Shown here: piece by piece, positions 32,129 to 37,712 of the stretch
How the letters are laid out: every line of letters begins with the position of its first letter
Numbering within the stretch: position 1 is the first letter of the stretch
Assembly (NCBI GenBank): GCA_013360585.1
Contig: JABWBH010000013.1
Location: 62,001 to 126,000 of the forward strand
Direction: 5' to 3'
DNA length: 64,000 nucleotides
DNA from: Phycisphaerae bacterium
GTDB lineage: Bacteria; Planctomycetota; Phycisphaerae; UBA1845
Made by a program: the position numbers and the translations under genes
The notes under the pieces: generated by a model
The model's database searches: none
What the model was told of the DNA's origin: nothing
Seen by the model: the letters and a program-made list of their open reading frames with translations, nothing else

Positions 32129-33094
32129 TCAACCGCGCGAGCGGTGCGGCGACAACCCCGAATCCAGATGCGGCTGATATCCGCAGTCGTACGCCCAGTC
32201 CGGGTTGTTCCCGTACCCGCGGTACCACTCATCGACGGTGGTGTAATCCGGACCGGTTTCGTGGCGCGTGTCGATGTAAAGGTACTCGCCGTGCGCGTCC
32301 ATGAAGCCCGCGACGTGTTTCGAGAATTTGCCGTGGAATCCCCAGACCTGCATGCCCGGCGCGCGGCGCTGCTGACGGCTGTCCGCGCCCTCATGAAACG
32401 CCCGGTCCGCCGGATCCTCATAAAGAATCATGAAGCGGCTGCTGTCACGCGTGGAGGCGTTGATCCAGATCCGCTGCCCCATCTCGAACTTCTTCTCCCA
32501 GTTCATCTGGGGATAGGTCTGGTACCACCACAACCACGAAAGCTGGTAGCTCGTGCCGACGTCGTCGTAGGCGGTGACTTCATTCTGCTGACGATCGCCG
32601 TATTCCGCCCAGTACTCGCCCTGGGCGCTGCCGAAGTCCGACGGGCACTCGAACACCTCCATCGGCGTCACGCGATCATCGGCGGTGTTCCACAATCCGT
32701 CCGCGCCCTTGCTTTCCGGTTCGATCGTCCCCGCGGTCATGAAGACCGACAGCGGCCGCTTCTCCGTCGGCACGTAAAAGATGCCGCTGTCGCGCTGCTC
32801 CCAGTAATCCCGGTTGCGTCCGCCCCAGCCGCCCCACGACCACGTACACCAGCCCGTCCCGCTGTCGGTCTGCTGCACGTAGATCGGGAAAAACTTCTGC
32901 TCGTCGAAGTAATTGACGAAGGACATGCTGATCGAACGCACGTTCGACAGACACTTGGCCGCCTTGGCCTGTTCCCGCGCCGCCTTGAGCGACGGCAGCA
33001 GCATCGAGATGAGCAGGGCGATGATGGCGATGACGACGAGCAGCTCGACCAGCGTGAACCCCGACCGGCGACGGACCTTCCTCAACGCGTCCAT
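32129..33094 (-). CDS. Prepilin-type N-terminal cleavage/methylation protein (type II pseudopilin-like)
   Basis: A 321-residue protein starting with a short basic leader and the type IV prepilin signature G|FTLVELLVVIAIIALLI, cut between Gly and Phe by prepilin peptidase. A Trp/Tyr-rich globular domain follows, with WNTADDRVTPMEVFECPSD and a C-terminal GFMDAHGEYLYIDT, as in the large pseudopilin-like families expanded in Planctomycetes. A near-perfect AAGGAGGTG lies before the ATG, suggesting high expression. It may form surface or secretion filaments or act as a minor pilin; the exact role is unknown. Confidence 0.88.
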   Translation of the reverse strand: MDALRKVRRRSGFTLVELLVVIAIIALLISMLLPSLKAAREQAKAAKCLSNVRSISMSFVNYFDEQKFFPIYVQQTDSGTGWCTWSWGGWGGRNRDYWEQRDSGIFYVPTEKRPLSVFMTAGTIEPESKGADGLWNTADDRVTPMEVFECPSDFGSAQGEYWAEYGDRQQNEVTAYDDVGTSYQLSWLWWYQTYPQMNWEKKFEMGQRIWINASTRDSSRFMILYEDPADRAFHEGADSRQQRRAPGMQVWGFHGKFSKHVAGFMDAHGEYLYIDTRHETGPDYTTVDEWYRGYGNNPDWAYDCGYQPHLDSGLSPHRSRG

Positions 33095-33650: not shown

Positions 33651-35564
33651 ATGATGACCGGAATCACCGGATTATTCGACACTTCGGACTTTCCGCCGCG
33701 CTGGACCTGCGGAACCTGGACGCCCCTGCACGGGTGGGTCCACATCGTGGCCGACGCCGCGATCTGGGGGGCGTACACGATGATCCCCGCGGTGCTGGCG
33801 TACTTCATTCTGAAGCGCCGGGATGTCCCGTTTCCGCGCATCTTCTGGTTGTTCTGCCTGTTCATTCTCTCCTGCGGCACGAACCACCTGATGGAGTCGG
33901 CGATTTTCTGGTGGCCGGCATACCGTTTTGCGGCCTTGCTGAAGGTGCTGACGGCGATTGCGTCGTGGGGGACGGTCCTCGCGCTGATCCCGACCGTGCC
34001 GAAGGCGCTGAGCCTTCCCGGGCTGGCGAAGATCAACAGCGATCTGACCCGCGAGATAAAGGAACGACGACGGATTGAAGCGGCCCAGCGCGCCGGAGAG
34101 TCGCAGCTTCGGGCGATTTTTGATCACGCCAGCGACGCCATCATCACCGTCGGAGAGCGGGGCGACATCACCGCGTTCAACCGGGCCGCCGAGCGCCTTT
34201 TCGGATACGAAGCGTCCGCCATCCTCGGCAAGTCCATCTGGGGCCTTCTCGGTCCCGGAGACGGAAACGCCCCCGCGGAAGCGTGGTGGAAGCAGCTTCA
34301 AGGTGCCGGCGCGCCGGCGCAGGACGGTCGTCTGACGGCGACGGGCTGGCGCCGCGACGGGCATGCGGTTCCCGTCGAGCTGTCCGTCGGCGACTTCGAG
34401 ATCCTATCCGCGAAGCACTATGTCGCCATCCTCCGCGACGTGCGCGAGCGGAAGCGCGCGGAGGATCGCTTCCGCATCGCCGTCGAGGCGGCGCCCAGCG
34501 CCACGGTGATGACCGACGCCAAGGGGCGCATTCTCCTGATCAACGCTCAGACCGAGGCGATGTTCGGGTACCGGCGCGATGAACTGCTCGGGAACCTCGT
34601 CGAGACTCTCGTTCCCCGCCGCTTCCGCGATGCGCATCCGCAGTTCCGGGGCGCCTTCTTCGCCGATCCGCACGCGCGACCGATGGGCGCAGGACGCGAC
34701 CTTTACGGACTGCGCAAGGACGGCCACGAAATCCCCGTGGAAATCGGCCTCAATCCGATCAACACGGACGAAGGTCTCGTCGTGCTGGCGTCCATCGTGG
34801 ACATCACCGAGCGAAAACGTGCCGAGGCCTCGCTGCAAAGCGCCCACGATGAACTCCTCCGCCGTAACGAGGAGATGGAGCAGTTCACCTACACCGTGTC
34901 GCACGACCTGAAGTCGCCGCTGGTCAACCTTGAGGGTTTCGCCGCGTTCCTCGCCCGCGACGTCGAATCCGGGCGCACGGACCGCATCGTTGAGTTCACC
35001 GGGCACATCACCCACGCCGTCGGGAAAATGCGCGAGACGATCGACGCCCTCCTCGAGATCAGCCGCGCAGGACGGGTTTCCAGCGATGCGAAGCCCGTCC
35101 ACCTCCGCCGGCTCGTCGACGACTGGGTGGCCGCGCACACCGGGATGATTGCCCGGGCGGGCGCGAACGTCCATGTCGCGCCGGAGTCGCTGGTGATCCA
35201 ATTCGACCCGCAAAGACTTCATGAAGTCTTCGACAACCTGCTGACCAACGCCTTGAAATACGGATGCCCGTCGCCCGGCGGGCGCATCGAAGTCGGCTGG
35301 GAGCGCGGGGACGGCGAGATCCGCGTCTTCGTCCGCGACCACGGACCCGGCATCGCCCCGCGCTATCACAAGCGAATCTTTGAACTGTTCCAGCGCCTTC
35401 ATCGGCAACCAGAAGGGACGGGCGTGGGGTTAAGCCTCGTCAAGCGGGTCGTCGAGCATCATCGCGGGCGGGTCTGGGTCGAGTCGGACGAGGGCCGCGG
35501 GGCGTGTTTCTGGTTTTCTCTGCCCGCCGAGCTGGAGATCCCTGCAAAATCCGAGGTGGGATGA
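33651..35564 (+). CDS. Ethylene-receptor-like membrane sensor histidine kinase (EBD-PAS-PAS-HisKA-HATPase)
   Basis: A 637-residue sensor kinase. Residues 28-120 form three hydrophobic helices with Asp35 and Tyr42 (VADAAIWGAYTMIP), Ile45, Pro46, Ile72, Cys75 and His79 (FILSCGTNHL). Each sits exactly ten positions after the ETR1 residues needed for copper and ethylene binding (25, 32, 35, 36, 62, 65, 69). Two PAS domains follow (about 150-265 and 275-390). The kinase has the H-box SHDLKSPLVNL and ATPase boxes NLLTNALKYG, DHGPGIAP and GTGVGLSLV. GAGGAG precedes ATG 33651. The next gene's start overlaps its stop. The ligand is inferred, not shown. Confidence 0.88.
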   Translation: MMTGITGLFDTSDFPPRWTCGTWTPLHGWVHIVADAAIWGAYTMIPAVLAYFILKRRDVPFPRIFWLFCLFILSCGTNHLMESAIFWWPAYRFAALLKVLTAIASWGTVLALIPTVPKALSLPGLAKINSDLTREIKERRRIEAAQRAGESQLRAIFDHASDAIITVGERGDITAFNRAAERLFGYEASAILGKSIWGLLGPGDGNAPAEAWWKQLQGAGAPAQDGRLTATGWRRDGHAVPVELSVGDFEILSAKHYVAILRDVRERKRAEDRFRIAVEAAPSATVMTDAKGRILLINAQTEAMFGYRRDELLGNLVETLVPRRFRDAHPQFRGAFFADPHARPMGAGRDLYGLRKDGHEIPVEIGLNPINTDEGLVVLASIVDITERKRAEASLQSAHDELLRRNEEMEQFTYTVSHDLKSPLVNLEGFAAFLARDVESGRTDRIVEFTGHITHAVGKMRETIDALLEISRAGRVSSDAKPVHLRRLVDDWVAAHTGMIARAGANVHVAPESLVIQFDPQRLHEVFDNLLTNALKYGCPSPGGRIEVGWERGDGEIRVFVRDHGPGIAPRYHKRIFELFQRLHRQPEGTGVGLSLVKRVVEHHRGRVWVESDEGRGACFWFSLPAELEIPAKSEVG

Positions 35565-36037
35565 CGGCGGTTACTAACGTTTCGAAGCGGGAACTGGCGA
35601 GTTTCGGATCCTTGTCGAGGGCAACCGTTGTGAAACCCGATCTGCATCGAATCTTACTGGTCGAGGATGATGAGGGTCATGCCTTGCTGCTGCGACTGAC
35701 GCTCGCCGAGGTCGCGCCGCGGGCCTCCCTCGAGTTGATCCTCGACGGCGAGCGGGCGCTGACTCGCCTCAAGGAATCCGCATCAGGCCATCGTCCAGAC
35801 CTGATGATTCTGGACTTGAAGCTCCCTCGGCTTGACGGACATGAACTCCTCGCCGAGGTCAAATCCGACCCGAAACTCCAGAGTCTCCCGGTCCTTGTCG
35901 TCACTACGTCCACAAAACAGACCGACGCCGAACTTGCCAGTGTTTACTCTCGCGTCGCGTTCCTGAACAAACCCGTCCCCCCCGTGGAATTGCGGCGAGC
36001 GATTGAAGGACTCGGGTTCGCCTTGCAAGCAGGTTGA
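35561..36037 (+). CDS. Single-domain response regulator, Rcp1-like
   Basis: A 158-residue protein made of one receiver domain after a 25-residue leader. Acidic pocket residues are in ILLVEDDEGHALLL, the phospho-acceptor Asp is in LMILDLKLPRLDG, Thr is in VVTTST and the Lys is in VAFLNKPVPP. Such stand-alone receivers typically partner bacteriophytochrome-type kinases with the same SHDLKSPL H-box. The ATGA overlap with the kinase stop implies coupled translation, so this is its most likely phosphorylation partner. There is no output domain. Confidence 0.9.
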   Translation: MTAVTNVSKRELASFGSLSRATVVKPDLHRILLVEDDEGHALLLRLTLAEVAPRASLELILDGERALTRLKESASGHRPDLMILDLKLPRLDGHELLAEVKSDPKLQSLPVLVVTTSTKQTDAELASVYSRVAFLNKPVPPVELRRAIEGLGFALQAG

Positions 36038-36461
36038 CGGTTATGAGGACGAGGCGGAGATAGACGGGGGTCCGTTGATGGACGGTATCCCCAGAACGAC
36101 AAGCACATTTCAATCTGGGTTGACTCTCTTTCCCCGCCACCAGGCTCAGAAGATTACGTGTCTTTCATGGGTGCTCGTGCGGGTTGATCGGTCCAGAACC
36201 CACATGCGGGATAGCAATGTCAGTACGACTTTGAGCGCCTCGGGGTTTGTACTCAATTCGGCTGCGTCATTCCCTCCCTGCAACACGATAATATGATAGG
36301 TGAAGCAGCGATCCTCGTGGCCCGCGCGTTGGATGCGGCATCGCCGCACCGCCACGGCGATGCTGCGGCTCCAGTGCTCATGAATTGACGATGCGACGCC
36401 CAAGATGCGAGGCGTCCCATCGCAGACGCGAACGACGACAGGTCGAACCTGGAGGAAAAAC
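36038..36461. other. Intergenic region of lower GC before the CsrA-receiver gene
   Basis: These 424 bp hold no gene with confident support. GC content is lower than in neighbours, and a minus-strand frame of about 105 codons (36146-36463) is open but lacks family motifs. GGAGGAAAAAC at the right edge is the ribosome binding site of the next gene. Confidence 0.4.
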
Positions 36462-37058
36462 ATGCTGGTCATCGACCGACTGAGAAACACCGGAGTCTGC
36501 ATCGGAGAGCACATTCGCATTCGCGTGTTGCGCACCGGCGCGAACCGTGTGCGTCTCGGCATCGAGGCGCCGCGAAGCATCCCGGTCTTCCGGGAGGAGC
36601 TGAAACCGAAGGCGCCTGACCTGGGCGCCACGACGGAAAGAGAACAACCCTTCCGCGTCCTGGTGGTCGAAGACGATCCCAGCCACGCCGCGCTGATCGG
36701 GCTGGTCATTCAGGAGCGTCTCTCGACGTGTCTGACGGTCGCGACTTCGGGTTCGGAAGCACTGCGTCTGCTCTCGCCTGAACGCGAGGCGTCTGCGGCG
36801 CGTCCCAACCTGGTGCTGCTTGATCTGAACCTGCCGGACATGCCCGGTCTGACCGTTCTGGAGGCCATCAAGACCACGCAGGCGCTGCGAGCGCTTCCGG
36901 TGGTGGTGTTCAGCGGGCTGGAGCGCGCGGAGACCGCCCGGCAGTCGCTCGACCTGGGCGCCAACGCCTACGTTCCGAAGTCGACCTCCTTCGACGAGTT
37001 CTCACAGCGGGTCGTGCGCATCGTCGATTTCTGGAGCCAGGTGGGGCGGGTCGCGTAG
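36462..37058 (+). CDS. CsrA RNA-binding domain fused to a receiver domain
   Basis: A 198-residue fusion. Residues 1-50 align without gaps to E. coli CsrA: MLVIDRLRNTGVCIGEHI, NRVRLGIEAPRSIPVFREEL. They keep Arg6, Gly15, Val30-Arg31, Ala36-Pro37, Val42 and Arg44; Arg44 is central to GGA-motif RNA binding, while Arg7 is replaced by Leu. After a linker, residues 65-190 form a receiver with RVLVVEDDPSHAAL, phospho-acceptor Asp121 (VLLDLNLPDMPG), Ser151 and Lys173 (YVPKS). It is predicted to be a phosphorylation-tuned translational regulator. It lies in the locus of the ethylene-receptor-like kinase. GGAGG precedes the ATG. Confidence 0.9.
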   Translation: MLVIDRLRNTGVCIGEHIRIRVLRTGANRVRLGIEAPRSIPVFREELKPKAPDLGATTEREQPFRVLVVEDDPSHAALIGLVIQERLSTCLTVATSGSEALRLLSPEREASAARPNLVLLDLNLPDMPGLTVLEAIKTTQALRALPVVVFSGLERAETARQSLDLGANAYVPKSTSFDEFSQRVVRIVDFWSQVGRVA

Positions 37059-37110: not shown

Positions 37111-37182
37111 AGCCGACGGTGGGATTCGAACCCACAACCCCGGCTTTACGAAAGCCGTGCTCTACCGTTGAGCTACGTCGGC
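37111..37182 (-). tRNA. tRNA-Thr, anticodon CGU
   Basis: On the minus strand the sequence folds into a full cloverleaf: acceptor GCCGACG/CGTCGGC, D-stem GCTC/GAGC, anticodon stem CGGCT/AGCCG with loop TTCGTAA, and T-stem GTGGG/CCCAC with loop TTCGAAT. The anticodon is CGU, reading ACG (Thr). The discriminator base is U, and CCA is not encoded. Confidence 0.95.
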
Positions 37183-37200: not shown

Positions 37201-37608
37201 TTATGCAGGCGGCGGCGCGTCGTCGTCAACCAGCAGCCTGCTTACCGCCGAGAGGAGCTTTTCCATCCGAAACGGCTTGTTGATGTACGCGGCGGCCCCC
37301 AGACCCATCGCCCAGTCCTGATGCCGCCTTCCGACGTTGGCCGTAATCATGATGATGTGCGGTTTGTCCTCCTTGCGCTTCCCCGGTTTCAACTTCTCGA
37401 GGACGAGAAAACCGCTGCGCTTCGGCAGCATCGCATCCAGAATGATGAGATCGGGCGCTCCGCTTTGCGCCAAGGTCACGGCCTGCTCGCCGTCCGTCGC
37501 CACGGCAAGGGTCGCCCCGGATTCGCGCAACGCCGCCTCGATCGCGGATACGATGTCCGGATCGTCATCAACAATGAGAATTCTACGTCCGTGCAGCGAG
37601 GGTAGCAT
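37201..37608 (-). CDS. Single-domain response regulator
   Basis: A 135-residue receiver protein. Acidic pocket ILIVDDDPDIV, phospho-acceptor Asp in LIILDAMLPKRSG, Thr in IIMITANVG and Lys in AAYINKPFRME are all present. The end is Asp- and Pro-rich (VDDDAPPPA). The start at 37608 follows GGAGG at eight bases. It lies beyond the tRNA on the opposite strand from the kinase locus, so its kinase partner is unknown. There is no output domain, so it may relay phosphate or bind a target directly. Confidence 0.88.
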   Translation of the reverse strand: MLPSLHGRRILIVDDDPDIVSAIEAALRESGATLAVATDGEQAVTLAQSGAPDLIILDAMLPKRSGFLVLEKLKPGKRKEDKPHIIMITANVGRRHQDWAMGLGAAAYINKPFRMEKLLSAVSRLLVDDDAPPPA

Positions 37609-37712
37609 CCGTCCATCCTCCGGATTCAGCACCGCCGCGGGGCGTCGCGGCATCCTACTGTCCGGGGAGACTGACGGCAACGCGGCGCCGTGCCGGCGGG
37701 TGCCTCCGCTGG

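Follow-up and report, generated by a model that had tools for sequence, protein, structure and literature searches.

The gene at nucleotides 36462–37058 of the window (the whole 64,000-nucleotide stretch of Phycisphaerae DNA analyzed here) specifies a genuine and rare fusion of a CsrA RNA-binding domain to a phosphoreceiver domain, which has a single origin and is kept by selection. On balance its product is best read as a response regulator that uses CsrA as its output domain and would bind mRNA under phosphorylation control. The searches gave six such fusions, which are spread over two classes of the phylum: in the source genome (G000), in its congener G534, in G629 and G694 of the same order, and in G357 and G950 of the second class.

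The gene lies on the plus strand and encodes 198 amino acids plus a stop, as defined by the translated ORF and its homologs. The product possesses a CsrA domain (residues 1–49; 36462–36608), a fast-evolving linker of low pLDDT (residues 50–64; 36609–36653) and a receiver domain of the Rcp1/phytochrome-regulator type (residues 65–198; 36654–37055) with a C-terminal FW pair (F190 W191). The frame is open further upstream and an alternative ATG is possible at 36405; the start at 36462 is favored because a Shine-Dalgarno sequence (GGAGG; 36451–36455, plus strand) stands about 7 nt 5' of this ATG and because the product then begins with MLV, typical of CsrA. The leader has GGA motifs beginning 11 and 8 nt before the start codon (−11 and −8), where they overlap the Shine-Dalgarno sequence and are inseparable from it. 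No conserved RNA structure beyond chance was detected in the leader (fold z-scores of +0.4 to −1.4), and an Rfam scan revealed no element in the leader, its sole match being a tRNA-Thr. A tRNA-Thr (CGT; 37111–37182, minus strand) is located directly downstream of the fusion and beyond it lies a single-domain receiver gene (37201–37680, minus strand). A DUF1559 pilin-like protein is encoded at 32129–33094 and, together with the gene content, points to Planctomycetota as the probable phylum.

Residues 1–49 match CsrA (PF02599) without gaps at 55.1 bits (E=7.6e-15; hmmscan, Pfam; curated cut-off 27 bits) and include R44, as a previous reading of the sequence alone had claimed for residues 1–50. 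Against the CsrA equivalog (TIGR00202/NF002469; NCBIfam) the fusion scores 45.2 bits, under the cut-off of 70.1. A CsrA ortholog proper is a stand-alone chain of about 60–75 amino acids with a C-terminal helix; since the fusion falls below the equivalog cut-off and is a 198 amino acid protein with a receiver, it is not named a CsrA ortholog. Its CsrA half shows 33–41% identity to the typical CsrAs aligned.

The fold of this half was investigated with an AlphaFold2 model of residues 1–62, built as a single chain on 15 CsrA-like sequences. The model has a mean pLDDT of 80.8 (about 85–93 over residues 1–40) and strands at residues 11–14, 18–25 and 30–35. Known CsrAs pair their first and last strands with the partner subunit, and a single-chain model is accordingly expected to lack them. 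Foldseek comparison with the PDB placed CsrA/RsmA/RsmE structures at all of ranks 1–15 (probability 0.96–1.00; next match 0.57), mostly with an rmsd of ~2 Å across some 46 columns. The shortness of the chain keeps the E-values weak, with none better than 3e-3. The predicted N-terminal half is of the CsrA beta fold, and the sequence-only reading thus withstands its own check by structure prediction. The C-terminal helix of CsrA is predicted for three residues at most, with the linker in its place. Compared with CsrA/RsmA/RsmE (PF02599; PDB 2bti, 1vpz, 2jpp and 5z38), the fusion is alike in the gap-free residues 1–49, in the predicted fold and in R6, V42, R44 and E46; it is unlike them in the attached receiver, the linker standing for the C-terminal helix, the replacement of His43 by Phe, and Leu rather than Arg or Lys at position 7.

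In the CsrA of C. jejuni the residues L2, R6, K7, I14, I18, A36, I42, R44 and E46 are important and conserved across diverse species, those reported for E. coli CsrA are R44, V42, L2, I47, V40, L4, R6 and R7, and an R6–E46 salt bridge has been described (PMC6692469). The RNA-binding surface brings together the first strand of one subunit and the last strand of the other, with L4 and R44 named as critical for RNA binding (PMC7652899). The fusion has eight of the nine listed key residues (L2, R6, I14, I18, A36, V42, R44 and E46), the exception being Leu at position 7, and conservative substitutions at positions 4, 40 and 47. This Leu had been thought to replace the usual Arg and perhaps to alter RNA specificity, but of 30 canonical CsrAs of the same order (the best-scoring loci of the search there, a sample which leans to the typical) 29 have Gln at position 7 and one has Thr, and the two stand-alone CsrAs of the source genome have Ser or Thr. 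Leu7 as a specificity switch away from a usual Arg was thus rejected for this lineage. At position 43 all 30 canonical CsrAs carry His, whereas this fusion carries Phe. Across G000, G534, G629, G694, G357 and G950, respectively, position 7 is L, L, C, A, D and G, and position 43 is F, F, S, S, W and W; the loss of His43, to Phe, Ser or Trp, is a common signature of the fusions. Since His43 is lost and position 7 is never basic in the six, RNA affinity or specificity may differ from that of classic CsrA.

These same losses would suit a CsrA half which had given up RNA binding and served as a dimerization or docking module, for FliW, another CsrA or some other protein partner, with the output passing through protein contacts of the receiver. 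The known protein partners of CsrA include FliW and CesT (PDB 5dmb and 5z38 are among the Foldseek matches), and here an unstructured linker has replaced the C-terminal helix. R6 and R44 are nevertheless invariant in all six fusions, V42 is kept in five and E46 in four (G694 has Ser at position 46), known CsrAs depend critically on R44 to bind RNA (PMC7652899), and the CsrA half shows no amino-acid changes between the congeners. Loss of RNA binding is accordingly a reading to be kept in mind, though we consider it unlikely.

The receiver half (residues 66–184) matches Response_reg (PF00072) at 69.1 bits (E=4.5e-19; hmmscan, Pfam; curated cut-off 30.2 bits). Its active site is complete, with the acidic pair D71/D72, the D121 phosphoacceptor, S151 at the T/S position and K173, the last three as named in the sequence-only reading. 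When the receiver was aligned with 28 others, E70, D71, D72, G97, D121, G129 and K173 stood at positions without variation. The two halves were otherwise modeled separately; a full-length model, for which the alignment had receiver rows alone, gives the receiver a pLDDT that mostly exceeds 90 and leaves the linker at low confidence. Rcp1-type receivers dimerize via their C-terminal part. The closest solved matches to the receiver of the fusion are Rcp1, RcpA and bacteriophytochrome regulators (PDB 3heb, 6xvu, 1k68, 1i3c and 5brj), and they reach through the C-terminal stretch holding F190 and W191, two residues invariant in all six fusions. Rcp1-type regulators are stand-alone receivers, whereas the receiver of the fusion comes after an RNA-binding domain. 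Five of the six retain the phosphoacceptor Asp, the acidic pair, the T/S residue and the Lys; the G694 protein has Glu at the phosphoacceptor position and may, judging by this residue, be locked or phosphorylation-independent.

Upstream of the fusion, and likewise on the plus strand, are a sensor histidine kinase with ETR1_N-PAS-PAS-HisKA-HATPase domains (33651–35564; Pfam; longest ORF from 33486), which is a possible partner kinase, and a single-domain response regulator (35561–36037; PF00072, 59.7 bits). The start of the regulator overlaps the stop of the kinase by 4 nt (ATGA; 35561–35564), and it is the presumed primary partner of that kinase. The gap between regulator and fusion is 424 bp, in which a crude scan found no plus-strand terminator-like site, and the kinase lies about 0.9 kb upstream of the fusion. 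The sequence FILSCGTNHL in the ethylene-receptor-type membrane domain of the kinase carries a C-x3-H motif which resembles the copper ligands of ethylene receptors, and bacterial ethylene-type sensing by this protein is worth testing. In G534 the same kinase (90% identical) and regulator (73%) neighbor the fusion. Among four congeners, G000 and G534 possess kinase and fusion alike, and G596 and G608 lack both; an empty-site comparison with G596 revealed no shared synteny except acetyl-CoA synthetase. Near the other four fusions no kinase or two-component gene was recognized in Pfam scans and ORF lists of the stretches read, the ORFs of which were partly scanned. Conservation of the kinase neighbor across all fusions was therefore rejected, the arrangement being seen only in the source genus. 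Counted against a pairing of kinase and fusion are the closer, overlapping regulator which the kinase already has and the length of the gap.

Were the receiver a constitutive dimerization or protein-binding module which merely places the CsrA domain, switching would fall to expression or to a partner protein, and both the Asp-to-Glu change in G694 and the four fusions without a recognized kinase alongside would be accommodated. This appears improbable given the intact set of active-site residues in the other five proteins, the purifying selection acting on the receiver (dN/dS 0.15), and the linkage of the kinase gene to the fusion, with the same presence and absence, in the source genus.

The source genome encodes two further stand-alone CsrAs (loci L001 and L002), the latter directly downstream of a fliW-like gene recognized by sequence. 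Because these two ordinary CsrAs are retained, the fusion is regarded as a specialized extra copy. Solved structures show CsrA as an obligate homodimer, and with two canonical copies in the same genome the fusion could conceivably act as a negative regulator, forming mixed dimers with the ordinary CsrAs and titrating or recruiting them under receiver control. We give this little credence, as the divergence from the typical CsrAs aligned may prevent mixed dimers.

The distribution of the fusion was studied by protein and profile searches. Among 392 genomes of the phylum the protein search gave one clear full-length match, in G357 (41% identity), and the profile search added the congener G534 (90% identity) and G629 and G694 of the same order. 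The order was searched whole, and the fusion occurs in at least four of its 114 genomes; in the class of G357 it occurs in at least two of the 348 genomes sampled, with the addition of G950. A six-row profile run over the phylum sample found both domains in G000 and G357 only. These counts are lower bounds because only the best candidates per genome were scored. No fusion was found in viral contigs and plasmids. A maximum-likelihood tree was computed for 68 receivers picked from the closest ones found, and in it the six fusion receivers form one clade (support 99/96); within the limits of the sample, the fusion thus has a single origin. Since its origin it has either been lost often or moved between lineages.

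A comparison of G000 and G534 revealed eight synonymous and no nonsynonymous differences in residues 1–50 (40.2 synonymous and 109.8 nonsynonymous sites); under neutrality the chance that all eight would be silent is (40.2/150)^8, about 3e-5. The dN/dS ratio is 0.84 for residues 51–64 and 0.147 for residues 65–198. Purifying selection maintains both domains, and the linker is loose. An accidental or decaying read-through fusion of adjacent genes, without function, might be suspected from the rare and patchy occurrence, but this isolated accident is refuted in the main and has almost no likelihood left, because five other genomes have the two domains joined as well, in the same order, across two classes and with a single receiver clade, and because both halves are under purifying selection.

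Further CsrA architectures were met in other genomes. In G512, one protein joins CsrA to a histidine kinase (domains CsrA, HisKA and HATPase; L209:869-1774, minus strand; 302 amino acids); its kinase relatives in sister genera match only beyond the CsrA part, and the protein is so far a singleton. In G694, CsrA is in frame with a PfkB-type sugar kinase (L206:1292-2407, plus strand; 372 amino acids). Tandem CsrA-CsrA proteins, which are possibly single-chain CsrA dimers, are specified by four genomes of the order (L207:1367-1855 and L213:1234-1539, both plus strand, L212 and L214), two of them Pfam-confirmed. A divergent form of stand-alone CsrA is recurrent (L211, L215, L219, L222, L223 and L224), in which the first loop is longer (VVVGG....VTVLEI) and EVW replaces EVY/EVF.

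Direct two-component control of translation would fit the intact receiver site, the RNA-binding residues kept and, in the source genus, the adjacent kinase. In the mechanism which we infer, from dimerization and RNA binding to phosphorylation, the kinase and the direction of the switch, the CsrA halves of two molecules would pair as a strand-swapped dimer of the usual kind, which would bind GGA-containing mRNA leaders. A histidine kinase, in the source genus most likely the ethylene-receptor-like kinase upstream, would phosphorylate D121. Phosphorylation would then shift the pairing of the receivers, through the C-terminal region with F190 and W191, and so open or close the RNA-binding faces. 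The linker begins about 4–6 residues past the RNA-contacting R44, and the receiver must therefore sit near the RNA-binding surface. Counted against this explanation are the loss of His43 and of any basic residue at position 7 in all six fusions, the score under the CsrA equivalog cut-off, the Glu and Ser46 of G694, and the four of six fusions without a recognized kinase. The fullest form of the phosphorylation-controlled reading, a phosphorylation-gated CsrA through which an ethylene-receptor-like kinase acts on an mRNA-binding protein, giving one-step control of translation without sponge RNA or FliW, in a single-origin family scattered in one phylum, is offered tentatively and at rather less than even likelihood.

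The class of response regulators with a CsrA output domain is reportedly due to Galperin 2006. A 2007 paper citing that work names CsrA among response-regulator output domains (PMC2222644). On that account the CsrA-receiver architecture was catalogued some twenty years ago and the fusion joins a named class, which it resembles in having receiver and CsrA in one chain. Characterization is another matter: the sequence-only reading knew of no characterized protein of this type, and no experimental study of a CsrA-receiver protein was found in the openly accessible literature, subscription journals being mostly outside the search. CsrA acts globally at the post-transcriptional level and is itself under the control of sponge RNAs and protein antagonists. 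The description of E. coli CsrA itself as an orphan response regulator in a 2025 review (PMC12471899) appears to be an error. Two-component control of CsrA, which the fusion would share, is exercised in the BarA-UvrY/GacS-GacA pathway via CsrB/C (PMC7652899). That pathway signals through sponge RNAs, whereas the fusion has input and CsrA in one protein. The ANTAR domain is a helical domain unrelated to CsrA, which is C-terminal and acts on terminator hairpins. ANTAR regulators (AmiR, PdtaSR) resemble the fusion in joining two-component input to a direct RNA output (PMC12471899); the fusion is unlike them in its CsrA beta fold, which is N-terminal.

With six homologs, two of them closely related, and proteins of small size, phosphorylation control is testable. 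A CsrA with its own receiver would be a ready-made test of whether phosphorylation can switch mRNA binding directly, and would offer a natural scaffold for signal-controlled translation.
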